A program made the translations under genes and the position numbers. Under the pieces are notes generated by a model. That model was not told where the DNA came from. It worked only from the letters and a program-made list of their open reading frames with translations, and did no database searches. Of a DNA stretch of 34,539 bases, positions 5,675-26,332 are shown piece by piece. The stretch comes from a virus. Numbering within the stretch: the stretch's first letter is position 1; every line of letters starts with the position of its first letter. The stretch is taken from positions 1 through 34,539 of the IMG/VR virus record IMGVR_UViG_3300025870_000039. One strand, given 5' to 3'.

Positions 5675-6681
5675 TAGATATTTCCTGTGGCTCCGTATGA
5701 AGGAAGTTTTCTGGCCGGCCACCCGGCAACACTGGACAAAGCGATGCAACGACACTGATTCAGGGTTGATGAAAGCGCCCAGAATGAACCGTGTGGAATT
5801 TCGTAAGGCGTTTTGTAAATCTGCCTCGGCCCGGAGTTCCAAGATTTTCCCCAAGAATTCAGCCAGCAGACCAAAGGCTGACCAAATTGCTTCACGGTTT
5901 CGGGGCGTTCATCCCATCCGATTAGGCTTTGGCTGTGAGCCCATCGGCCTCTTTGTGAAGAAAAACCGTATGGGGCTTTTCGTGTTGAGCTGAAGCCAAG
6001 ATTACTGCAATTAAAAACACCGTAGCCGGCATGCAGGAAATCACGGACTTCTTCTCTACTTTTTAGAGTCGTTGCAGTTCGGGCTGTATGCTTCTGAGAT
6101 TCTTCTAACCACTTTCGCCCTGGAACCCTGGAACCACCAAGACGATTCGTTTCTTTTGTGTACTTAGTTAAATCTATTCCCAAATCTGGATATGGTTTTC
6201 GAACCAGGAAACCTTTTGATCCAGAAATCATCGCTGCTTTTGAACAAACCCAGCCTTCTCCGCTATGCCCCCTCCATGCCCAAAGTGATTCCGATGCAAT
6301 CGGGATGTTCTTGACCCCTTCGCGTGAAAGCTGTGGGGCTCCCTCAATCTTGCCGGTTATTTCATCTGGTTTTGCTTCAACGATTTCGCAGGCCGTGGTA
6401 AGAAGAAGGGCATTCGCGCATCCTTTTGCGACACAATCGCCTCGATTTTGAGGAGGCCCTGGCCAGCACCCAGGGAAAACAGTTTCAACATGAAGAAAGG
6501 GCAAAACAAGTTTTCCTTTTCCGCTGTCAGCAAATTCCCATTGGTGAGCTATTTCAGCGCCGTTTGGGTTTCCCCCAGAACGAATGATTGAATCTTCGAA
6601 CTCCTCGTCTGCTCGTGGGTCTGCTGATGCACCAACAAAACCAGAGTCGTAAATGTCTTTTAATGACTTCGCTGAAAACAC
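5674..6681 (-). CDS. Papain-like (C1-type) cysteine peptidase
   Basis: A 335-residue protein with the papain-fold active-site pattern in order. Q78 (oxyanion) is followed by C83 in PPQNRGDCVAKGC; H249 is in RWAHSQSLIGWDE; N275 is in WLNSWGKSWNSG. NSWG is diagnostic of the C1A superfamily. No signal peptide is visible, and there is no obvious inhibitory propeptide beyond the first 70 residues. GTG start at 6681 preceded by GAGG. It lies among small membrane proteins and immediately before a lipoprotein, with no recognisable peptidoglycan hydrolase in the window. It may therefore act on envelope protein at lysis or entry, or process virion or host proteins (inference). An inactive structural homologue is possible, though all four key residues are present. 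Confidence 0.8.
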   Translation of the reverse strand: MFSAKSLKDIYDSGFVGASADPRADEEFEDSIIRSGGNPNGAEIAHQWEFADSGKGKLVLPFLHVETVFPGCWPGPPQNRGDCVAKGCANALLLTTACEIVEAKPDEITGKIEGAPQLSREGVKNIPIASESLWAWRGHSGEGWVCSKAAMISGSKGFLVRKPYPDLGIDLTKYTKETNRLGGSRVPGRKWLEESQKHTARTATTLKSREEVRDFLHAGYGVFNCSNLGFSSTRKAPYGFSSQRGRWAHSQSLIGWDERPETVKQFGQPLVCWLNSWGKSWNSGPRQIYKTPYEIPHGSFWALSSTLNQCRCIALSSVAGWPARKLPSYGATGNI

Positions 6682-6688
6682 TGGAACC

Positions 6689-6898
6689 TCATTTCGATCG
6701 ATGGATGGTAAAGTCCTTCGCCAACCGCGTAACCAGTCTGCTGCCTATCCGACGAAACCAGCACGGGAAAACTGCGTGGATGATCAGAAACGACCCGGCC
6801 ACCAGACACCTGAGCCCGTGGAAAAACGCAAATGAAAAATGAGATCGATAAGTCATCTTGTTTTTTCGCAAATGCTTTTTTGATTTTCGAATGATCAA
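6689..6898 (-). CDS. Small basic membrane protein
   Basis: A protein of about 69 residues if translation begins at the TTG at 6898, which has GGGAGGGG five bases upstream; an ATG at 6856 would give 55 residues. It has a basic N-terminus, one hydrophobic segment (LRCLVAGSFLIIHAVFPCWF), and a basic C-terminus. It lies between two better-supported genes in the same direction. Size and topology fit a holin-like or other small phage membrane protein, but no family is recognised. An open plus-strand frame covers the same bases, so confidence is modest. Confidence 0.4.
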   Translation of the reverse strand: MIIRKSKKHLRKNKMTYRSHFSFAFFHGLRCLVAGSFLIIHAVFPCWFRRIGSRLVTRLAKDFTIHRSK

Positions 6899-6899
6899 C

Positions 6900-7364
6900 T
6901 CAGCCCCTCCCAATTCGGAACTTCCAAGACAGCAGATCGCAAACCCGAACTGCTTGCTTTCTTTTTTCTCCAGAAAGCGGAGCTACTTCTGAACCTAGAA
7001 TTTCTGCAAACACAGAATCGATTGCTTTTCCGAGCCCTGGAACTTTCCCAATGTCTTCTTGGTCAACCGCAAGCTGAAGGGTATCGGCGTGCATAATTGC
7101 GAGATCTTCCGTAGTTTCGATTAGCGGCCTGTCGAGCTTCGCGTCCCTAGAAAGAACCAAAGCCATTGCTTCGTACAAACTATTGAGGTGATCTCTGTCG
7201 TATGGGAACATGCCAGGAACCAGCTTCGATAGAGGCTCCAAAGCGGACGACTCTTCTGAACTCGGAATAACGGTATTCACTTCTGGAACCTCGATTTTCG
7301 GTAGGCCGGCAAACGCAAAATAAAGGATTGCGCCAGCGGCCAGCACTCTCCAAGAAAAGTTCAT
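6900..7364 (-). CDS. Membrane-anchored hypothetical protein
   Basis: A 154-residue protein with an N-terminal hydrophobic segment (residues 6-22) acting as signal anchor or uncleaved signal, then a Glu/Ser/Pro-rich linker and a helical soluble domain (residues 55-150). It starts in an ATGA overlap with the upstream membrane-protein gene. Family unknown. Confidence 0.65.
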   Translation of the reverse strand: MNFSWRVLAAGAILYFAFAGLPKIEVPEVNTVIPSSEESSALEPLSKLVPGMFPYDRDHLNSLYEAMALVLSRDAKLDRPLIETTEDLAIMHADTLQLAVDQEDIGKVPGLGKAIDSVFAEILGSEVAPLSGEKRKQAVRVCDLLSWKFRIGRG

Positions 7365-8920: not shown

Positions 8921-9332
8921 CAAGTCGCCTCAAGCGTAGGGATGCAACATGTTCATGTCGCGGTCTTTCATCCACTGCGCAAACGCCTTCTTGGCCGACA
9001 TAGGTAAAAGTGCCGTTGCTGCTGTTGTAGTCAAACTGCCTTACTCCAGCGACTACGGATTCAACTGGGATTCCAGCTCTCTTCAGATAGGTTAGTGTGT
9101 CCCAAGTTTCTCGGATCTTTTCGCATTCTTTTTTTATTTCTTCTGGAGTGGGAACGTAATCAGGTTCTCGTTTTCGACCTCGTGCGTACTTCTTCTTCCC
9201 AAGACGCAACCGATACGACTCCTGAGCGACCGCATGTTGTGTAAGCGAAAAGCGATTTCGGATGTCGATAATCCGAACAGTGTCATCGTCCCACATCTTT
9301 CTCAGCTCGTCTTCGTATTCTTTTTCACTCAT
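8895..9332 (-). CDS. Hypothetical protein with YVPTPEEI..C..IR..W motif
   Basis: A 145-residue protein. Residues 20-50 resemble a DNA-binding helical region with a basic stretch (GKKKYARGRKREP). The motif YVPTPEEIKKECEKIRETW follows at about residues 58-76, shared with the gene at 8329-8598. A C-terminal basic region follows. It starts in ATGA overlap with the DUF3310 gene. The role is unknown; a regulator or sigma-related adaptor is conceivable. Confidence 0.65.
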   Translation of the reverse strand: MSEKEYEDELRKMWDDDTVRIIDIRNRFSLTQHAVAQESYRLRLGKKKYARGRKREPDYVPTPEEIKKECEKIRETWDTLTYLKRAGIPVESVVAGVRQFDYNSSNGTFTYVGQEGVCAVDERPRHEHVASLRLRRLDEIRKKAG

Positions 9333-9574
9333 TTTTTTACCTTTCCCTGCTCTAGTTCAACTGCCCTTTGTGCGTACCAAGCACACTTTTTTAAGTCCTC
9401 CAAACGACTTGCGGACTGTTTCTTTCCACACCTCCAGGCATACTTGATTATGTTCCCAACCAAAAAGTCGTGGTGCTGCGTGATCTCGTAACACTCGACA
9501 CCGGAAGGGTGATCAGAGTAATGCGTCGGGTTCGTTGTGTTCTCGGTTGTCGTTGTCTGAATGTTCTCTGCCAT
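9329..9574 (-). CDS. DUF3310 family protein
   Basis: An 81-residue protein matching DUF3310: NPTHYSDHPSGVECYEITQH then a 'GNIIKYAWRCG' helix, then 'LEDLKKCAWYAQRAVE'. These proteins are widespread in phages, often near nucleotide metabolism or replication genes, with no proven function. Its N-terminal 15 residues are Thr/Asn-rich and overlap the preceding gene by 62 bases in another frame. Confidence 0.88.
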   Translation of the reverse strand: MAENIQTTTTENTTNPTHYSDHPSGVECYEITQHHDFLVGNIIKYAWRCGKKQSASRLEDLKKCAWYAQRAVELEQGKVKK

Positions 9575-9767: not shown

Positions 9768-10119
9768 CAAACTCGTCGTCCTCTCCATAATCTTCGCTCT
9801 CGAAATCAGACTCATTGAAATAGCCTTCATCGTCTGCCTCCTTTGATAGAAAAAAAACATCTGGTGATGTTGTTACGAAAACTGGAGCATCCTCAACGTC
9901 CAACAGCATTGTTGTTTCGTGCATCGTGGAAAGCGCTGACTCAAGGCTCACATCGTTTTCCCTTGCAATGATCCGAGCGCATGTCTTCAGGCAGTAGGCC
10001 GCTACGTGCTTTTGTTTCGCTGTGGTCACATAACCGATAAATGCGCCATCAAGACCTTCTGGGACAAGAGCTTCTGGATTAAGCTCGGCAAGCTCGTCGA
10101 TTGATCCTTCTGGAATCAT
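9760..10119 (-). CDS. Hypothetical phage protein
   Basis: A 119-residue protein with a very acidic C-terminal tail (residues 95-119). The segment L-V-P-E-G-L-D-G-A-F-I-G-Y followed by a helix with 'Y-C-L-K-T-C-A-R-I-I' recalls a common phage protein with 'D-A-L-I-G-Y...Y-D..K.C..I' of unknown role. ATGA overlap with the methyltransferase gene upstream. Confidence 0.6.
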   Translation of the reverse strand: MIPEGSIDELAELNPEALVPEGLDGAFIGYVTTAKQKHVAAYCLKTCARIIARENDVSLESALSTMHETTMLLDVEDAPVFVTTSPDVFFLSKEADDEGYFNESDFESEDYGEDDEFDE

Positions 10120-10859
10120 GCTGATCTCCTCGTTGTGTAGGTCAGTAGCCTTTGTGTAGCAATGGCGGCATACTGCGGATTGAGTTCAATCCCAACTGTG
10201 TTTCTTTTGTTTTTCACGCCAACACAAGAAACTGTTCCCGACCCCATGAACGGGTCAAGGACAGCATCCCCTGGGTGTGAAGAAACGAGAATGATTCTTT
10301 CGATTAGTTTTTCAGGTAGTTGTGTCGGAACTCCAGGGATCCTTTCTTTGAAAGTTCCGCACACTCGCGGAATATCCCACACATCCCCCATAACTTTTCC
10401 TTCTGGATTGGCTCGTTTATCGCCATATTTTACTTGACGATCACTTGGAATTAGAACGGCGTCTCGATTGAAACAAAAACCAAGTTTGCTTTTGGTTGCG
10501 TAAAAAATAGAGCGGCTGGTTCGGCCAAATTTATTTCGACAATAAACACCGAATCGCTCCTGCCAAGTAATTCGGTTGCGGAAGTAAAAGCCTCTATTTT
10601 GAATTTCTATATCGATTGCCGCGCCGTACTCTTGGCCGCTAACAACCCAAATAGAACCTGTTTTCTTTAGAACCCGGTGACACTCAGATAACCACACAGA
10701 ACACCAATACTGGTAATCGTCCCTTTTGTCGGCCTTAACACCAGAACCATAATTGATTCCGATATTATAGGGGGGATCCGTGACAATCAGATCAATGGAC
10801 TCGGCTTTCATCTCTTTCAGCTTATCAACGCAATCGCCGATAATTATTTCTGAACCCAT
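10116..10859 (-). CDS. Beta-class DNA methyltransferase (adenine-type)
   Basis: A 247-residue amino-methyltransferase. The catalytic motif IV D28-P-P-Y31 lies near the N-terminus and the SAM-binding motif I, DPFMGSGT (202-209), near the C-terminus, with the target-recognition segment between; this order defines the beta class. DPPY favours N6-adenine, though N4-cytosine cannot be excluded. The phage may use it to evade host restriction or mark replication. GGAGGA, located inside the upstream csrA-like gene, is its ribosome-binding site, so the two are translationally coupled. No cognate restriction nuclease is adjacent. Confidence 0.92.
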   Translation of the reverse strand: MGSEIIIGDCVDKLKEMKAESIDLIVTDPPYNIGINYGSGVKADKRDDYQYWCSVWLSECHRVLKKTGSIWVVSGQEYGAAIDIEIQNRGFYFRNRITWQERFGVYCRNKFGRTSRSIFYATKSKLGFCFNRDAVLIPSDRQVKYGDKRANPEGKVMGDVWDIPRVCGTFKERIPGVPTQLPEKLIERIILVSSHPGDAVLDPFMGSGTVSCVGVKNKRNTVGIELNPQYAAIATQRLLTYTTRRSA

Positions 10860-19012: not shown

Positions 19013-19930
19013 ATGGCGGGCTCCAGTGAAAGTTCTTTTCCCATGCTTCTGCAAAAATTTCTTTACGATTTCTACGTCCCTCTAACTGGCATAAGTCCTC
19101 GAACCCAAAAACTCTACGAATTCACTCTAGCGTCCTGGGGTGAGTTTCTTGGAACTCCGCCTACAACGGACGACCTAGATATGCTCGTAGTCGCTCAATA
19201 CATCACCCACAGGACAGCTACTCGAAGTCCAGCTACCGCTGCAAAAGACCGCGCACAAATAGTTGCGCTTTGGAATGCGGCTGCCAAGCAAAAGTTGTGT
19301 GATTCGTTTCCGATGGTTCGCCGAGTCAGGGTTCCAGAAAACCTTCCGGAAGCGTGGACTATAGAAGAGTTCCGGAGCTTGTGTGCATCGTGTTTTCAAG
19401 AAGACGGAATGATCGGCAACATCCCGGCAAAGTATTTTTGGCGATCACTATTACTGTGTGCCTACGACACCGGGGAGCGGATCTCCGCAATCATGTCTCT
19501 GCCGTTTGAAGACGTTTCGGAAGCGGGTGTAATTTTTCGCGCGGCTCACCGAAAAGGGAATCGGCGAGACATTTATAGGCAGATTGGTCGTGAAACAGTG
19601 GATGCCATAAATGTTATTCGTGATGATCGAGAAAAAGTTTGGCCTTGGCCCTATCACCCAAACTATTTATGGCGAAAATTTTCGCATGTTTTGACAAACG
19701 CGAAGCTGCCGAGTGGCAGGCGGCATAAGTTCCACAAGATTCGTCGAACTACCGCATCATTTTTTCAAGCCAATGGTGGAAGCGCTCAAGCCTTGCTGGA
19801 TCACAGTAATCCCGCCACAACTCGCCGTTATCTCGATCCCAGAATCGTCGGTGGTTTTTCCGCACCGGACGTTTTGCCGAGCGTAGGGGCAGTTGATGCA
19901 CCCGAGCGAGCAGCAAAAGCCCCTAGATAA
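19013..19930 (+). CDS. int: Tyrosine recombinase (phage integrase)
   Basis: A 305-residue tyrosine recombinase. The N-terminal SAM-like core-binding domain occupies about residues 10-105. The catalytic domain has Arg156 (TGERISAIMSL), Lys181 (AHRKGNRR), His241-x-x-Arg244 (HKIRRTTASF), His264 (LLDHSNPATT) and the nucleophile Tyr273 (RRYLDPRI), so the full set is present. The RRYLDPR ending is one I associate with planctomycete integrases. The ATG at 19013 has a weak ribosome-binding site; 19043 is an alternative. Role: integration and, with an unidentified excisionase, excision of the phage genome. Its 3' end overlaps a minus-strand gene by 174 bases. Confidence 0.93.
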   Translation: MAGSSESSFPMLLQKFLYDFYVPLTGISPRTQKLYEFTLASWGEFLGTPPTTDDLDMLVVAQYITHRTATRSPATAAKDRAQIVALWNAAAKQKLCDSFPMVRRVRVPENLPEAWTIEEFRSLCASCFQEDGMIGNIPAKYFWRSLLLCAYDTGERISAIMSLPFEDVSEAGVIFRAAHRKGNRRDIYRQIGRETVDAINVIRDDREKVWPWPYHPNYLWRKFSHVLTNAKLPSGRRHKFHKIRRTTASFFQANGGSAQALLDHSNPATTRRYLDPRIVGGFSAPDVLPSVGAVDAPERAAKAPR

Positions 19931-19966
19931 AAGTTCTTCCGCCGACAGCGGCTTGGGGTCACTCAT
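19757..19966 (-). CDS. DUF5522-like cysteine-rich small protein
   Basis: A 69-residue protein with the motif LLSRGFCCSLGCINCPYARQ at about residues 12-31. It closely follows the DUF5522 pattern 'RG-x-C-C-x-x-x-C-x-x-C-P-Y', probably a metal site. It starts in an 8-base overlap with the gene before. The distal 174 bases are antisense to the integrase 3' end, so its C-terminal half may be partly constrained by that gene. The motif itself lies largely inside the overlap (about 19874-19933). Function of the family is unknown. Confidence 0.55.
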   Translation of the reverse strand: MSDPKPLSAEELLSRGFCCSLGCINCPYARQNVRCGKTTDDSGIEITASCGGITVIQQGLSASTIGLKK

Positions 19967-20423
19967 CGAATTCAGTTTTGTCTGGATGAGTGGCCCCCTG
20001 TATCATCAGGTCGTCTGACCTTACGGTCGGAGCTGGGTTTTCTGGCACATACGAGTAGTCCCAACGTATATGAAAACACTTGTCCCGACGAATGGTTTGT
20101 CCGTTTTTGTTTTCCCATTCGTAAATTATTCGTCCGACATATCGACCAATATCAGGTAGGGCTATCACGCGAAACTTTTGGGGGTAGCCGGCGTCAGCCC
20201 AAGCCATCATTACGAGCCCCCCGGCCATTCCGTCTTCCGAAAAACGATCAGGCCCAAAGATGGCGCGGACTGATCGTTCAAGATACCAGCCCCTAGCGCC
20301 CCAATAACTCGGATTGATGAGAAACGTAGCGCAAACCGCGACTGTTATCACGAGTAAAAAAGCAGCAAACGAACGAACAACAGTCTTGAAGCAACTGCAC
20401 TTCCCGCAATTAAAGCAGTTCAT
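19959..20423 (-). CDS. Hypothetical membrane protein with N-terminal cysteine cluster
   Basis: A 154-residue protein. Residues 3-11 (C-F-N-C-G-K-C-S-C) are a compact cysteine cluster, then one membrane segment (about residues 17-37), then a soluble domain of about 115 residues. The ATG lies inside the sulfotransferase gene's end (14-base overlap). No family recognised. The cluster with sulfotransferase and glycosyltransferase suggests an envelope-related role (inference). Confidence 0.6.
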   Translation of the reverse strand: MNCFNCGKCSCFKTVVRSFAAFLLVITVAVCATFLINPSYWGARGWYLERSVRAIFGPDRFSEDGMAGGLVMMAWADAGYPQKFRVIALPDIGRYVGRIIYEWENKNGQTIRRDKCFHIRWDYSYVPENPAPTVRSDDLMIQGATHPDKTEFDE

Positions 20424-21012
20424 TTTTTATCTCCCAGTGTTGGTGCGCAAACTTTTTAGGGAACGGCTCGTCCTTTGGTGGATCGATTCCAAGAAACTCA
20501 CCAAGAAGATTCCATTTTGTTTTTGATTCATCTCTCATATCTAAAACGAGAAGATCGTCTGCTCTTGCGTGGAAGTAAGTGAATACCCCATCGACATGCT
20601 TGATTGCCATATCCATGAATCTTTTGTACGGGTTGTCTTTCCAGTATTTTAAGACGCCATCTCCTGCGTTTTTGTATTGCTTGTGAATCATTCGAGACCA
20701 AGACAAGGCGCAGTCCTCTGGTGGCCGGTAGGTGAGAATGAATCTAGCGCCTTCAACGTGCTTGTCTATTTCCTGGTACATCTCCCAAACAGGGTGATCC
20801 ATCAGTGCGTCGAAGCCAGTGATTCCTTCTATCGGACTTCTGTTTTCTTTATGGTTCTCGACAAGTTGCTTCCAAATGCTTTCATTCCGTTTGAACTTGT
20901 TGCTCCCTGTGTGATATGCACTCAAGCCAAGCCTCTCTAAAGCTGCGGCTAAAGAATGCGAGCCCGTTTTGGCCGTGCCTATCCCGAATACGTATGGCTT
21001 TTTAACCGTCAT
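20410..21012 (-). CDS. Sulfotransferase family protein
   Basis: A 200-residue sulfotransferase. The 5'-phosphosulfate-binding loop is GIGTAKTGSHSLAAALERLG near residues 10-29, and the 3'-phosphate-binding motif is FILTYRPPEDCALSWSRM near 91-108. The C-terminal segment DDLLVLDMRDESKTKWNLLG with 'F-L-G-I-D' is also typical. Known reaction: transfer of sulfate from PAPS to a hydroxyl or amine of a carbohydrate or other acceptor. The start at 21012 overlaps the glycosyltransferase stop by 11 bases; longer forms would run through that gene. Such an enzyme in a phage tail operon is unusual. Confidence 0.85.
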   Translation of the reverse strand: MTVKKPYVFGIGTAKTGSHSLAAALERLGLSAYHTGSNKFKRNESIWKQLVENHKENRSPIEGITGFDALMDHPVWEMYQEIDKHVEGARFILTYRPPEDCALSWSRMIHKQYKNAGDGVLKYWKDNPYKRFMDMAIKHVDGVFTYFHARADDLLVLDMRDESKTKWNLLGEFLGIDPPKDEPFPKKFAHQHWEIKNELL

Positions 21013-21889
21013 CTCGTTTGTCCTTAAAGTATTGCGAGGTGCTTGCGTTCGCCTCTTCTTCCCAGTCCCATTTCTGCAAGCCGTTTTTTGCATCGTGGAC
21101 AGCGAACTCCCCGTCGTCTCTCCTGGGGAAAAGTTTTGTCCGTGATATGTATTGGCGATTAGCCCGATTGCCGTGCCACAAGTGAACCAGCTCTACATCT
21201 TGAGGAACGCCGATTCGAAAGTTGTTGTTTGATGCGTTCAGTCGGTACTTTCTGTACGAAGCGCAGCTGATCGAAGGATCCTGCCTTTTTGCGTACCACT
21301 GCTCCACTTGCTCATGCAGATCGTTTATTCGAAGGCTTAATCCAAAGAGCGCGTCCGAGTTACCCGCTACAGAACAGTCAAAGAAACCGCCGAGCCTTTT
21401 AAAAGCGTCTCTTGTTAATCCCCACCCAAAACCTGGGTGAAACTTTGTTAAGCATGGTTTTTCTCCTCGTCCTATCGCCGCAGCAAAAGGTTCTCTGTGC
21501 ATGTCTGGTAATCCAGCCTCGTCCTGCCATATCGCCATCGAAAACGGCTGAATAATGTCATGCGAAGAAAATGCTGCTTCGCACTTCTCGATCCACCTTG
21601 AGTCCTTGAACACAACGTCTGAGTCAAGAAAAATGATCGCATCCGAATCCACAGACTTGGCAGCGAGATTCCATAATCGCTCTTTGTGAAACAACAGCGA
21701 GGATGTCTTATACACAAGTGACTTTATTGCACTTGGAACACGCTGCGGATTCTGCCCAGGGAATACCGCTTGAGACACAACAACGTCAAGCCCTTGCGCA
21801 TGAAGTGTGTTCATTACGGCATGCAAGTGCCGCTGCGGTAGCTCGTATTGAACTGGTGAGAAGAAAGACAATACGACTGCTATTTTCAT
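21002..21889 (-). CDS. Family-2-like glycosyltransferase
   Basis: A 295-residue GT-A fold glycosyltransferase. The metal-binding D89-S-D91 follows a strand (AIIFLDSDVVF); before it is the usual 'K-E-R-L-W-N-L-A-A' helix. Later FHPGFGWGLTRDAFKRLGGF with 'N-S-D-A-L-F' is the acceptor/catalytic region seen in GT2-like proteins. No signal or membrane segment, so probably cytoplasmic. It overlaps the sulfotransferase gene, so both are probably co-translated and may act on the same glycan. Confidence 0.85.
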   Translation of the reverse strand: MKIAVVLSFFSPVQYELPQRHLHAVMNTLHAQGLDVVVSQAVFPGQNPQRVPSAIKSLVYKTSSLLFHKERLWNLAAKSVDSDAIIFLDSDVVFKDSRWIEKCEAAFSSHDIIQPFSMAIWQDEAGLPDMHREPFAAAIGRGEKPCLTKFHPGFGWGLTRDAFKRLGGFFDCSVAGNSDALFGLSLRINDLHEQVEQWYAKRQDPSISCASYRKYRLNASNNNFRIGVPQDVELVHLWHGNRANRQYISRTKLFPRRDDGEFAVHDAKNGLQKWDWEEEANASTSQYFKDKRDDG

Positions 21890-21897
21890 TTCTGCAC

Positions 21898-22017
21898 TTA
21901 GCTGGTTGTGTATACAAGGATCGTTCCCAAGTAAACTTTCGTCACTGTGGTGCTTCCCAGCTTCACTGCTGCAACGGACGTTTCTCCGTAGCCTTCTTGG
22001 CCAACAATAAGTGCCAT
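21898..22017 (-). CDS. Very small tail-associated protein (39 aa)
   Basis: A 39-residue open frame that begins directly after the TAA of its upstream neighbour (TAAATG). It ends eight bases before the glycosyltransferase start. The sequence has the repeated strand pattern VKLGSTTVTKVYLGTILVY. This recalls small phage tail or fibre-associated proteins with 'KVYLGSTLVY' segments. Tight spacing and this pattern make it likely real despite its size. Confidence 0.55.
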   Translation of the reverse strand: MALIVGQEGYGETSVAAVKLGSTTVTKVYLGTILVYTTS

Positions 22018-22290
22018 TTAATCCTCGATCACGTAAAGGGTTGATGCGTCTGGTGAAGAGATCGCGTTGTACTCAGCCTGAGTCAAACGGATGATGTTTG
22101 TGATTGACTCAGCGCCACTTACGCCAGTGGCATCACTTCCCACTGCACCACCGCTTGTGGTTGCAAAGTCAACAATGTTCTGAATCGTTACCTTATTGGT
22201 CGCTGATCCGTTTGCCCTGGAGACAGGAATAACATCCGAAGCCGCTGGGCTCGTGTTTTCTGTGAGGGCGGAAATCTTTACGTCTGCCAT
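22018..22290 (-). CDS. Fibre-associated structural protein
   Basis: A 90-residue protein. The opening (DVKISALTENTSPAASDVIPV then 'TNKVTIQNI') is a common start of phage tail fibre and appendage proteins. The end 'ITNIIRLTQAEYNAIS...TLYVIED' matches the short 'LTQAEYDAL..D..TLY.I' module found in tail proteins. Likely a small virion component or fibre tip. Confidence 0.7.
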   Translation of the reverse strand: MADVKISALTENTSPAASDVIPVSRANGSATNKVTIQNIVDFATTSGGAVGSDATGVSGAESITNIIRLTQAEYNAISSPDASTLYVIED

Positions 22291-22303: not shown

Positions 22304-22489
22304 TTACTCGGTTCGAAGCCTGTTACCTATCTCTGTATTAAGAACATTGGATCCTTCCGTTAAGATCCGAAAAGTTTCTGGTTCTGTGTCGTCTGCTGGT
22401 GTGTGTATTAGTTTTGGCGTGACAATGGCCACAGGAGATGGCGTTGCCGCCACCATTCCAAGCCCTCTTCCTATAAAAGCTATCGCCAT
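22304..22489 (-). CDS. Small hypothetical tail-region protein
   Basis: A 61-residue protein starting three bases after the previous stop. It begins with a short hydrophobic segment (residues 2-15). It ends with FRILTEGSNVLNTEIGNRL, which resembles the ILTESGDVLNHDG segment inside the large fibre protein. This suggests a common short structural motif. Function unknown. Confidence 0.5.
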   Translation of the reverse strand: MAIAFIGRGLGMVAATPSPVAIVTPKLIHTPADDTEPETFRILTEGSNVLNTEIGNRLRTE

Positions 22490-22491
22490 GA

Positions 22492-22770
22492 TTAAAAAGC
22501 CTGTACTGATACAGTTGTCGTTCCGCTTGCGGTGATCGCAGAAGCGCCACCGTCAAAAAGTTCTCTTTGTGCGTCTTGGTCAACCACGAACGCGGCTCCA
22601 GCAGCTAAAGGAATTCCGTTCGAGCTTGTCACAGCGTCACCGCCAGGGACAACCTTGATGTAGCAGGTAGTGTCGCCGACATTACTGATTGCAACGAACT
22701 TGTACGGATTCCCACTTGGTGCAGAAAGAACTGCTGTTGCTGTTGTGCTGACTGAAACCGATGAGATCAT
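22492..22770 (-). CDS. Beta-rich small structural protein
   Basis: A 92-residue protein with Ser/Thr/Val-rich beta-strand content (VSVSTTATAVLSAPSGNPYK, 'FVAISNVGDTTCYIKV'). This pattern is typical of small phage head- or tail-decorating proteins that contain 'v.N.g...i.v..gg.aV....G..L..G'. Placed just after the fibre gene, so probably a fibre or decoration component. Confidence 0.6.
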   Translation of the reverse strand: MISSVSVSTTATAVLSAPSGNPYKFVAISNVGDTTCYIKVVPGGDAVTSSNGIPLAAGAAFVVDQDAQRELFDGGASAITASGTTTVSVQAF

Positions 22771-22821: not shown

Positions 22822-25800
22822 TTAACTAATCGTGCGATACCTCGACGCGGATGCGCCATACGTGAATCCTGTGCCGGACGAGCCCATCGACTGGGTTTCG
22901 GATGTTGTCCCGTCTTCAAGTTTGTACTTAAACTCTTTAACTTGGGTGTAGTAGTCTCCCGCCGGAAAGTCCTCGGGGTATGCGGGTTCGGTCATCGTGT
23001 ACCCCCCGGCTGCCGTGTACCACAGCTTCATGTCGGCAGTCGTGCTTATGATGCCCGTTTCTGCAAGCGTCGTACTTGTCCCTGATTTGAAGAAGCGGAG
23101 CTTGAATTGCGTGAAGCCATTAAAGTACGAACCGCTATACGACGGCCCTTCTCCCCTTCCGCCGAACAACATTGCGACCGGAAGCTCTCCTAAAAGGTAT
23201 TTATCCCCACTTATGTACGTCGGTTTGATGTGTCGCATGTAGACAGCACCGGCTGGCTCACTGCCGTACTGCGCGAGTGTGTATACCTCCCACGCCCTGA
23301 AGTCCAGTGTTGCGGAGTCAGATGTGACTGAAGCTGCTACCGAGCGGTTCGCCGTGTCGCCTACAACGCATCTGAGGTAGAGTAATTCCGAGGAACTCTG
23401 AAGTGCTGGAGACCAGATTTGTAAAGTTGCTTCGTCGTAGGTTCCGTTGTTTAAGTATGTTGAGTCGGCAGTGAAGTCGTAGAAGTTTGTGCCATCGGAC
23501 GAATACTGCCACTGGTACGTGGGAGTCGCCAAGTCGCTCAAAGACGCGGATACTGAAAACTCAGCATAGGGGCTCGGCCAGTTTGACCCGCCGCCGTATG
23601 TGCCCCATCCAAAACTCCTGTAAGACTGAGAAGCTGTGTAATTAGTTGGCTGAGTGTTTATGGTTATAGTTGGAGTGCTGCCACCAGTCTGTGAGTAGCC
23701 TATTACTTGGGCCGCCTTTGTGTACACCGTAGCGCGACCTGGTGTGCCGCCCATCAGTCTAAACTGATCGCCGACCGAAGCGCTTGTCGTTGACAATGTC
23801 GCAGAAGTTGCGCCTCCAATATTAGTCCACGTTGTTCCTGTGTCTGTGCTTCGCTGCCACTGAAGCGCAGTTACTACGTCTTGGGTTGGGCTTGCAAAAC
23901 TATAGTAATACTGCTGGCTGGCAAAAGATGCTTCGAAAGCAACAGAACCACCGAAGAAGCCGACGTTTTGCGGATTCTGTATCGCGCCCCAAGCGTAGTA
24001 TGCCCAAGGAGACCACTCTGTTCGCTGGCCGTTTACAGTGGCGTATGCCCTGACTCGGTGTGCTTTTTCTTCATTGGTTTTTCCGTCTGTCCAGATTGGC
24101 ACTGCATAGCTCGGCGTACTGTCGGCTTCTCCTGTCCACCATTGATAGGTGCTTAGATTGGCAAGTGATGAGTATGCACTTGATGTGTTGCCCCACGTAA
24201 AACCACCTCCGGTCGCAGACGTTCCTTCTTCAAACTCAATATACCAATTCACGTTTGAAAAACCCGATGGCGTTACGGGGTTCGTCACTTTGATAAGTCC
24301 ATTATTGCCACCAGCGTTTCTTTCACCTGCCGATACGCTCGGGGCGAGAACTTCAAAGTCCTCGACTCTTCTGAATACAGCAACATTTGAGTACGGCCCA
24401 GGGACGCCGGCGACCGATAAGCGACATCGATATCCCAATCCTTCTTTGGAACTATTTTCGCTTATAGATCTAACCAAAGTCGAAGACGTTGCTCCGGAAA
24501 TGTCTGCCCACTCGCTCCAGTCTCCGTTTCGTGGCCCTGATGACCACTGGTATCCAATGTCTCCGCCGCTAGCACTTCCGGCAACGCTGAAGGAGATTGT
24601 TTTTGGCCAGCTTTCAAAAGCGTAGCCATTTATATCTTGTGGCTGTAAGGTGAACGAAGCAGAAAGGTTGGGGTTAGTGCTTGTCCCGCCATCACCGCCG
24701 CCACCACCACCAGTGCCAGTCGTGTTTCCTGCGCCGGCTCCATCATGGTTTAGCACATCGCCCGACTCCGTGAGGATCGTGTCCTCGTCTTCACCCAAGA
24801 GCCTGGCTGTAGCGGAAACTGTGAGGCCAGCTACGCGGCTGTTTACAACGGCAGCCCCCGGCGCTGAGACAATACACCGATACTGATTGCCGGTGTCTGA
24901 GTTTACAACAGAAAATGTATAGTTTGATCCTGTTTGGTTAGTTATGTTCGCAAAGCTGTTCCCACCATCGACAGATACTTGCCACTGATAACTAAGCGTG
25001 ACGCCTTGAGTGACACTGGCCGACACCGAAAAAGTAACATTGTCACCTTGCGTTGCATCAACGTCTTGCGGCGTGTTACTTGTGACAGTGATCACTGGCG
25101 CAGCTATGCCAAACGACGATAGCTGCGTTCTTCGCCACATCGTTCCATCGTGAACGTAAAAGAATCCAGCAGTGTCGTAAGCGATCTCACCGGCCGATCC
25201 AGAGTCGTCTGATTTGGTTGGTGCTGTTACCCAATTAACATTTCCAGCCGACCAGCTTAATACGCCAGCCCCATCCGTGGACAGCACTTGCCCCGCAATT
25301 CCATCGTCAGCAGGTAGGGTAAGAGATACATTTCCTGAAAAAGACGAGTGAGCGGGCGCTTTAATTGTGATACCGTGAGAATTTTGCTCGCAATTTAGAG
25401 TGAGCGAAGCTGAACCATCTGTTCCGCCTTGGATTTCGACAGCTCCGGTATCTGGATCCAAAACTAAATCACTGTCAACAGTCGCGGTGCCGTTCGTCAA
25501 CTCTTCAAAAGTCAGTGCGACATCGCCCGGCTGCCACTCGCTAGCAGTGCTGTTGTAAACCAAGGTCTGGTTTGCTGTCGGCGCGGTGTTACTTACATCG
25601 TCCAGCTCGCCGAGTTTTGTAGCGGCCGGATTGCTGACCGACACGAAGCTCGTGCCGTTGTATTCTAATATATGACCATTCGCCGCACCCGTCGTATCGA
25701 TCCCGCCGAGGTCAGTAAGGTTCTGTGCTGTTGCGCTAATTACAAACGCACCCGAGTCGGTTGTTACATTGATTCCGTCTCCAGCCTCTACTTCGAGCGA

Positions 25801-25950
25801 AGGCAGCCCGCTCTGGACAGTCCCGCCGAGAGTTAGGTTTGCCGAAGCAGTTGGTGAAGTAACCGTGAGGGGATCTGTCGCATCTGCATTTTCGATGTCT
25901 ACAGATATGGTCGAACCTACTGAAAGGTTTAAGCTGATGTTGTTACTCAC
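22822..25950 (-). CDS. Large tail fibre protein with Ig-like repeats
   Basis: A protein of 1042 residues if the GTG at 25950, seven bases after the previous stop, is used; a TTG at 26007 would overlap that gene. The N-terminal third has fibre-type motifs such as LTDLGGIDTTGAANGHILEY, 'L-G-E-L-D-D-V' and DDGIAGQVLSTDGAGVLSW. The rest holds about four Ig-like beta-sandwich repeats marked by Y-Q-W-Q...D-G-x-x-F...Y-R-C (about residues 285-385, 430-540, 660-760 and 770-900). A Gly-rich linker separates the first two, and a unique C-terminal domain follows. Expected role: host adhesion; Ig-like domains often bind carbohydrates. Confidence 0.8.
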   Translation of the reverse strand: MSNNISLNLSVGSTISVDIENADATDPLTVTSPTASANLTLGGTVQSGLPSLEVEAGDGINVTTDSGAFVISATAQNLTDLGGIDTTGAANGHILEYNGTSFVSVSNPAATKLGELDDVSNTAPTANQTLVYNSTASEWQPGDVALTFEELTNGTATVDSDLVLDPDTGAVEIQGGTDGSASLTLNCEQNSHGITIKAPAHSSFSGNVSLTLPADDGIAGQVLSTDGAGVLSWSAGNVNWVTAPTKSDDSGSAGEIAYDTAGFFYVHDGTMWRRTQLSSFGIAAPVITVTSNTPQDVDATQGDNVTFSVSASVTQGVTLSYQWQVSVDGGNSFANITNQTGSNYTFSVVNSDTGNQYRCIVSAPGAAVVNSRVAGLTVSATARLLGEDEDTILTESGDVLNHDGAGAGNTTGTGGGGGGDGGTSTNPNLSASFTLQPQDINGYAFESWPKTISFSVAGSASGGDIGYQWSSGPRNGDWSEWADISGATSSTLVRSISENSSKEGLGYRCRLSVAGVPGPYSNVAVFRRVEDFEVLAPSVSAGERNAGGNNGLIKVTNPVTPSGFSNVNWYIEFEEGTSATGGGFTWGNTSSAYSSLANLSTYQWWTGEADSTPSYAVPIWTDGKTNEEKAHRVRAYATVNGQRTEWSPWAYYAWGAIQNPQNVGFFGGSVAFEASFASQQYYYSFASPTQDVVTALQWQRSTDTGTTWTNIGGATSATLSTTSASVGDQFRLMGGTPGRATVYTKAAQVIGYSQTGGSTPTITINTQPTNYTASQSYRSFGWGTYGGGSNWPSPYAEFSVSASLSDLATPTYQWQYSSDGTNFYDFTADSTYLNNGTYDEATLQIWSPALQSSSELLYLRCVVGDTANRSVAASVTSDSATLDFRAWEVYTLAQYGSEPAGAVYMRHIKPTYISGDKYLLGELPVAMLFGGRGEGPSYSGSYFNGFTQFKLRFFKSGTSTTLAETGIISTTADMKLWYTAAGGYTMTEPAYPEDFPAGDYYTQVKEFKYKLEDGTTSETQSMGSSGTGFTYGASASRYRTIS

Positions 25951-25957
25951 GGGAAGC

Positions 25958-26332
25958 CTATGGGTTGCTGAGTGTGAAGGTTCCAGAAACAACTGTTCGC
26001 CGGACAAGTCCCGGCGCGTCCCATCTCAAAAACCATCGGTATTCAACCGATGTGCTTAGGTCTACCGTTGCTGATTCAGGTAGCCCCAGGGTGAGCTGTC
26101 CGCTTGCGGCATTTGTGACGGTAACTGTAAATGTGGCAGCAGTGTCGCCGATCGTTTCCACCGCTCCTGCTCCTCCGTTTCCGGATGCAAAGACTTTCTT
26201 CGTGTAAACAATCGCTACGATGTTCGTGTAATTGACAAGTGATATGTCGGTATCGAGAGAGATCTCCAGCTCATCTCCCGCGATCATCGAAATGTTCATC
26301 GTTGCGGGGAGCTGAGTAAATGATGTTGCCAT
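25958..26332 (-). CDS. Tail appendage protein, baseplate/fibre-connector-like
   Basis: A 124-residue beta-rich protein: 'M-I-A-G-D-E-L-E-I-S-L' then V-strands, 'S-G-Q-L-T-L-G-L-P' and 'Y-R-W-F-L-R-W-D-A-P-G-L-V-R-R-T-V-V-S-G-T-F-T-L'. This is the pattern of the small upper-baseplate or fibre-connector domains that precede fibre genes in many phages. It lies immediately before the large fibre. Function inferred from pattern and position. Confidence 0.6.
   Translation of the reverse strand: MATSFTQLPATMNISMIAGDELEISLDTDISLVNYTNIVAIVYTKKVFASGNGGAGAVETIGDTAATFTVTVTNAASGQLTLGLPESATVDLSTSVEYRWFLRWDAPGLVRRTVVSGTFTLSNP

Follow-up and report, generated by a model that had tools for sequence, protein, structure and literature searches.

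The stretch of DNA analysed here, hereafter the window, is one IMG/VR virus record, 34,539 bases long. Between its tail fibre gene and a tyrosine integrase gene it carries two overlapping genes, one for a GT-A-like glycosyltransferase (GT) and one for a PAPS-type sulfotransferase (ST). The features of this region, in the order in which the minus-strand tail operon is read, are as follows (L numbers denote related loci):

25958..26332, minus strand: fibre-module adaptor, 124 aa (PHROG_1084, unknown function, E 1.9e-5)
22822..26007, minus strand: tail fibre with an Ig-like stretch, N-terminal half conserved, Ser plus Thr 24%
22492..22770, minus strand: small post-fibre protein, 92 aa, a module marker (63-75% identity to L010, L005 and L081)
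22304..22489, minus strand: small protein of the fibre module, 61 aa (L005 and L081 carry homologues, at 48% and 53%)
22018..22290, minus strand: tail tip protein with a Phage_tail_C domain (PF24243, E 2.9e-11)
21898..22017, minus strand: 39-aa ORF resembling a tail-tip N-terminus (compare L010 7635-8396), from sequence reading and by-eye comparison
21002..21889, minus strand: GT, GT-A-like, 295 aa (Pfam Glycos_transf_2, PF00535, E 5.6e-6)
21002..21012, minus strand: 11-nt overlap of GT and ST, the ST ATG lying within the end of the GT with an SD-like AAGGA upstream
20410..21012, minus strand: PAPS sulfotransferase of the Sulfotransfer_4 type, 200 aa (Pfam PF17784, E 2.1e-21)
19959..20423, minus strand: single-TM protein, 154 aa, overlapping the ST by 14 nt
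19013..19930, plus strand: tyrosine integrase (PF00589, E 6.1e-9; PHROG_1, E 1.8e-25), convergent with the tail module

The preliminary description had placed an overlapping GT and PAPS-type sulfotransferase at the end of the tail operon. The coordinates and the 11-base overlap were right and both proteins matched Pfam families; the pair does lie near the operon end, but it is not last, since the TM-protein gene follows it and then the integrase. The ORF lister started the ST at 21093; the best ATG is at 21012, with AAGGA 8 nt upstream, which gives the 11-base overlap. When the 39-aa ORF, which occupies the gap ahead of the GT, is counted, gaps in the tail module do not exceed 51 nt, and promoter-like sites in the tail operon were no more frequent than in shuffled sequences. 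Homologues of the tail tip protein are present in L003, L004, L005, L010 and L081, while the adaptor, which we read as baseplate/BppU-like, has 34 relatives in IMG/VR. The TM protein contains one strongly hydrophobic segment and gave no match in a Pfam scan. Among the fibre and small post-fibre proteins we observed a recurring TExGDxLxTE-like motif (window 22304-22489 and 22822-26007; L081 7651-7896). FG-GAP (integrin-like) repeats were seen in a 449-aa tail-tip protein, with similar-looking ones in one relative's fibre (L003 1605-6329 and 6633-7982).

Both genes of the pair are intact members of recognised enzyme families. The ST scored 77.2 bits against Sulfotransfer_4 (PF17784; curated cut-off 22.8) and the GT 26.8 bits against Glycos_transf_2 (PF00535; cut-off 23.3), and no TM segments were found in either protein. 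The 5'-phosphosulfate (PSB) loop of the ST reads GIGTAKTGSHS, and its pattern GxGxxK[TS]GxxS is invariant in 4/4 phage copies, as are Asp72 and the 3'-phosphate (3'-PB) residues Arg96 and Ser104 (R96-x7-S104). Asp72 aligns with SmSULT Asp91, which touches the substrate hydroxyl in simulations (PMC12414012). Structural comparison of the ST model (pLDDT 72) returned SgdX2, Cpz8 and the Schistosoma SULT at Z 15-16, with unrelated kinases at Z 9-10. These three enzymes resemble the ST in fold and PAPS motifs, but share 20-26% identity with it and act on drugs or natural products. By profile, motifs and modelled fold the ST classes as a PAPS-type member of Sulfotransfer_4, and PAPS-dependent activity is predicted. 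The GT retains its DxD (D89, D91), HPGFGWG and C-terminal HLWHG motifs in relatives at 52-57% identity. Its model, which is of low confidence (pLDDT 63), matched GtrB, ArnC and GalNAc-T2 at Z 12-13, and also nucleotidyltransferases; the fold lists for both proteins do not exclude families outside them.

Phage GTs can act on DNA, and a GT-A fold would also suit an enzyme that glycosylates hypermodified phage DNA. We consider this very improbable, as the window genes that were scanned yielded only an N6/N4 methylase and neither a hydroxymethylase nor any other recognisable hypermodification gene, and as such a role would leave both the ST and the fibre linkage unexplained. The DNA N6/N4 methylase is encoded at 10116-10859, in the replication/early region of the window.

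Scans of IMG/VR and GTDB genomes revealed four relatives of the GT (L003, L004, L005 and L010), one on a contig that ends inside the GT (L004) and one within a Pirellulales MAG (L010). The ST directly follows the GT in all three relatives with visible downstream DNA, in the same gene order as in the window and with overlaps of 8 nt (L010), 4 nt (L005) and 8 nt (L003), and in each of them the GT tail contains a purine-rich SD-like stretch. With the window included, the pair is present in 4/4 loci in which the GT is complete and the DNA beyond it can be read, overlapping by 4-11 nt; because the relatives come from pattern scans, these counts are lower bounds from a non-random sample. Given this recurrence and the curated-family matches of both proteins, the overlap arrangement is more than chance. 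In IMG/VR, a scan with the ST alone as query returned nothing, and a scan with the ST alignment led back to the L003 and L005 contigs and to no others. Among 50,697 isolated phage records the ST had no match and the GT a single weak one, in Xanthomonas phage XaC1 at 22%. On a 178-kb virus contig (L006 7989-11248), a distant homologue of the GT (26%) lies in a GT/epimerase/methyltransferase-like cluster without a Sulfotransfer_4 gene (ST4).

We also considered whether the pair might be a host genomic fragment or an assembly chimera. In 396 Pirellulales genomes the next-best GT and ST homologues were distant, and within the sampled Pirellulales loci, of about 3.5 kb, an ST4 was never found beside a GT-type homologue (0/9), nor a GT beside an ST4-type homologue (0/16). 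In trees tested against the Pirellulales homologues, the phage GT and the phage ST each formed a single clade with 100/100 support, apart from the cellular sequences. Together with the pairing in the relatives, the unpaired and distant Pirellulales homologues and the single phage clades indicate that the pair is a phage trait. Since it is moreover syntenic across independent contigs, and its flanks are collinear with L081, we regard a host fragment or chimera as next to impossible and rejected it, as we did DNA modification on the evidence above. The expectations of the preliminary description were in part borne out: related phages carry both genes, overlapping; the host-fragment origin that it had named as a counter-argument is contradicted by cellular homologues that are never paired in the sampled Pirellulales loci and by the separate phage clades; and the active-site residues, whose loss in relatives would have been a contrary sign, are retained in all of them.

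The preliminary description had also pointed to marine planctomycetes, and planctomycete hosts agree with the binning of the relatives in Pirellulales, ocean bacteria of a planctomycete group. This assignment comes from metagenome bins, in which phage contigs may be misplaced. The L081 contig (IMG/VR 3300033112_000221) is equal in size to the Pirellulales bin contig G117:C87 and has an identical 200-nt stretch in it, a sequence match that gives a hint of the host of the window's phage type. APS kinase was found in three Pirellulales bins (G005, G117 and G139), and to judge from these genes PAPS would be supplied by the host.

We then compared the surroundings of the pair. The four GT relatives have structural genes in common among themselves; weak matches apart, they share with the window only the integrase, the ST, the GT, small tail proteins, the fibre N-terminus and the adaptor, which indicates that the pair moves with the fibre module between phage backbones. 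The closest whole-phage relative of the window is L081 (33,863 bp), which is collinear with it at about 26-75% identity. In the window, the Phage_tail_C and TM proteins flank a slot that holds the GT and ST4; between the same flanks L081 has a LamG-like tip protein and a 182-aa sulfotransferase-like protein (8970-9518) with the motifs FNAKAGSSSL, RDPVQRFLS and HFLPQ. A different sulfotransferase-like gene therefore replaces the pair at the same position. Relatives of this protein are encoded in L085 (11043-11606) and L086 (7759-8325), and the TM protein brackets the slot in L081, L083, L085 and L086. Although a sulfotransferase or sulfotransferase-like gene was present in 7/9 modules with a readable slot, the slot of L083 contains only the tip and TM proteins and L084 lacks either sulfotransferase, so that the fibre module can dispense with one.

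This second family was examined at ten loci (L081, L085, L086, L091, L092, L093, L095, L097, L105 and L115), and in 10/10 the distance between the stop of a fibre or adhesin-like gene and the start of the second-family gene is -4 to +18 nt. The upstream proteins contain fn3 domains in L092, L093, L105 and the L095 group, LRR_4 in L115 and a PKD-like domain in L097, and are tip-like in L081, L085, L086 and L091, those of L085 and L091 being so classed by resemblance and neighbourhood, without a Pfam match. The family occurs on about five unrelated phage backgrounds, including contigs of 37, 56 and 60 kb, possibly incomplete, in which no integrase was detected. Its NxK PSB and R-x7-S 3'-PB motifs are invariant at 10/10 loci. 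Its Pfam scores were 13-16 bits, below the cut-offs of 22-27, the best against Sulfotransfer_2 (PF03567) being about 15 bits for a cut-off of 22. A profile-profile comparison with ST4 gave a probability of 3.7 and no support for homology, PDB profile searches returned nothing useful, and two members had no match among the 50,697 isolated phage records. None of 57 Pirellulales genomes gave a Sulfotransfer_2 match, and hence there is no cellular yardstick for the family. We rejected PHROG_3347 (galactose-3-O-sulfotransferase) as evidence because it also matches Escherichia coli, Bacillus subtilis and Corynebacterium glutamicum controls. Despite the motifs, the scores below cut-off, the unspecific PHROG_3347 and the lack of a relation to ST4 led us to name the family only sulfotransferase-like. 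In L115, where the region is phage-like and belongs to a Pirellulales bin, the sulfotransferase-like protein (6254-7267) has a C-terminal DUF4376-like stretch (E 2.3e-4, below cut-off).

The recurrence of these genes bears on the idea that the ST sulfates a small molecule or another target, such as a nucleotide, lipid or metabolite, and that its linkage to the fibre is a mere cargo (moron) position. Cargo genes are common in tail-end slots, the nearest solved relatives of the ST, Cpz8, SgdX2 and the Schistosoma SULT, use small molecules, and modules such as L083 and L084 exist without a sulfotransferase. However, two sulfotransferase or sulfotransferase-like families are recurrently coupled to fibre genes, and ST4 is always partnered by a GT, which makes this explanation improbable in our view.

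The gene overlap and the linkage to the fibre point instead to the fibre or tip, or its receptor, as the target. The most likely reading, to which we assign a probability of roughly 45%, is that the pair decorates the phage's own tail fibre or tip with a sulfated sugar. The two genes would then form a two-enzyme cassette within the tail-fibre, or host-recognition, module of temperate Pirellulales phages. We infer a reaction order in which the soluble GT would attach a sugar to the acceptor, and the soluble ST, probably made by translational coupling, would move sulfate from host PAPS onto that sugar. The most likely acceptor would be the phage's own fibre or tail-tip protein, modified during late assembly, and the product a sulfated, negatively charged attachment organelle that may aid adhesion, enter into Ca2+ or charge interactions, or provide shielding. 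Consistent with this reading, the genes are packed into the tail operon, the enzymes are predicted to be soluble, and the second family lies behind fibre genes on contigs without a detected integrase. The Ser/Thr content of the fibres, which might be raised if they were O-glycosylated, was equal with and without the pair and so does not discriminate between fibre and receptor.

The same enzymes might instead act on a glycan that is assembled in the cytoplasm for the host surface, which would block binding by the fibres of the same or kin phages (serotype conversion or superinfection exclusion). We treat this as the main, if tentative, alternative. In this temperate phage the pair has the fibre gene on one side and the integrase on the other, a location that also suits serotype-conversion genes and in which P22 keeps its gtrABC genes; linkage to the fibre module would equally suit a modifier matched to the receptor, and enzymes that are cytosolic by sequence could act on lipid-linked precursors. 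The window thus resembles P22-type GtrABC systems in having a GT close to a tail gene and the integrase of a temperate phage, but differs from them in that no GtrA flippase, or other Gtr-type flippase, and no polyprenyl-linked membrane GT was recognised beside the pair, and in that the pair includes a PAPS sulfotransferase and is packed into a tail operon whose promoter-like sites do not exceed those of shuffles. Furthermore, lysogenic conversion makes little sense for the second family, given the 37-, 56- and 60-kb contigs without a detected integrase. The preliminary description had named both host surface and virion protein as possible substrates; from the order of the genes, their place in the operon and the occurrence of the second family behind the fibres of apparently lytic phages, we lean towards the virion fibre.

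Modification of the virion fibre would have a functional model in the mycobacteriophages Che8, Corndog and Myrna, in which phage GTs glycosylate virion proteins (PMC12363180, citing Freeman 2023). The likeness lies in a phage-encoded GT acting on capsid or tail proteins of the same phage; those systems differ in their GTs, in their capsid and tail tube targets and in their mycobacterial hosts, and no sulfotransferase is mentioned for them there. In the window, too, the GT lies within or adjoining the structural operon, and a glycan on a virion protein is predicted. The literature searched consisted of open-licence papers, so that absence from it weighs little; no sulfotransferase paired with such a GT was found there, nor any account of a phage with sulfated tail fibres.

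Sulfotransferase domains have been described in marine phages, namely OM43 phages (PMC10580990) and a coral phage (PMC11309003), the former carrying Sulfotransfer_3 as opposed to the Sulfotransfer_4 of the window; linkage to a fibre is not mentioned in the portions of these reports that we drew on, and the role of the enzymes is described there as unclear (PMC10580990). Our observations raise the possibility, which we put forward with caution, that several unrelated marine phage types have a sulfation slot coupled to the fibre, which two or more different sulfotransferase families occupy, and make sulfated tail fibres. The constant position behind fibre genes gives marine phage sulfotransferases a testable role, namely to sulfate the attachment organelle or its receptor, and points to a role in host range or recognition in planctomycete phages, which have been little studied.
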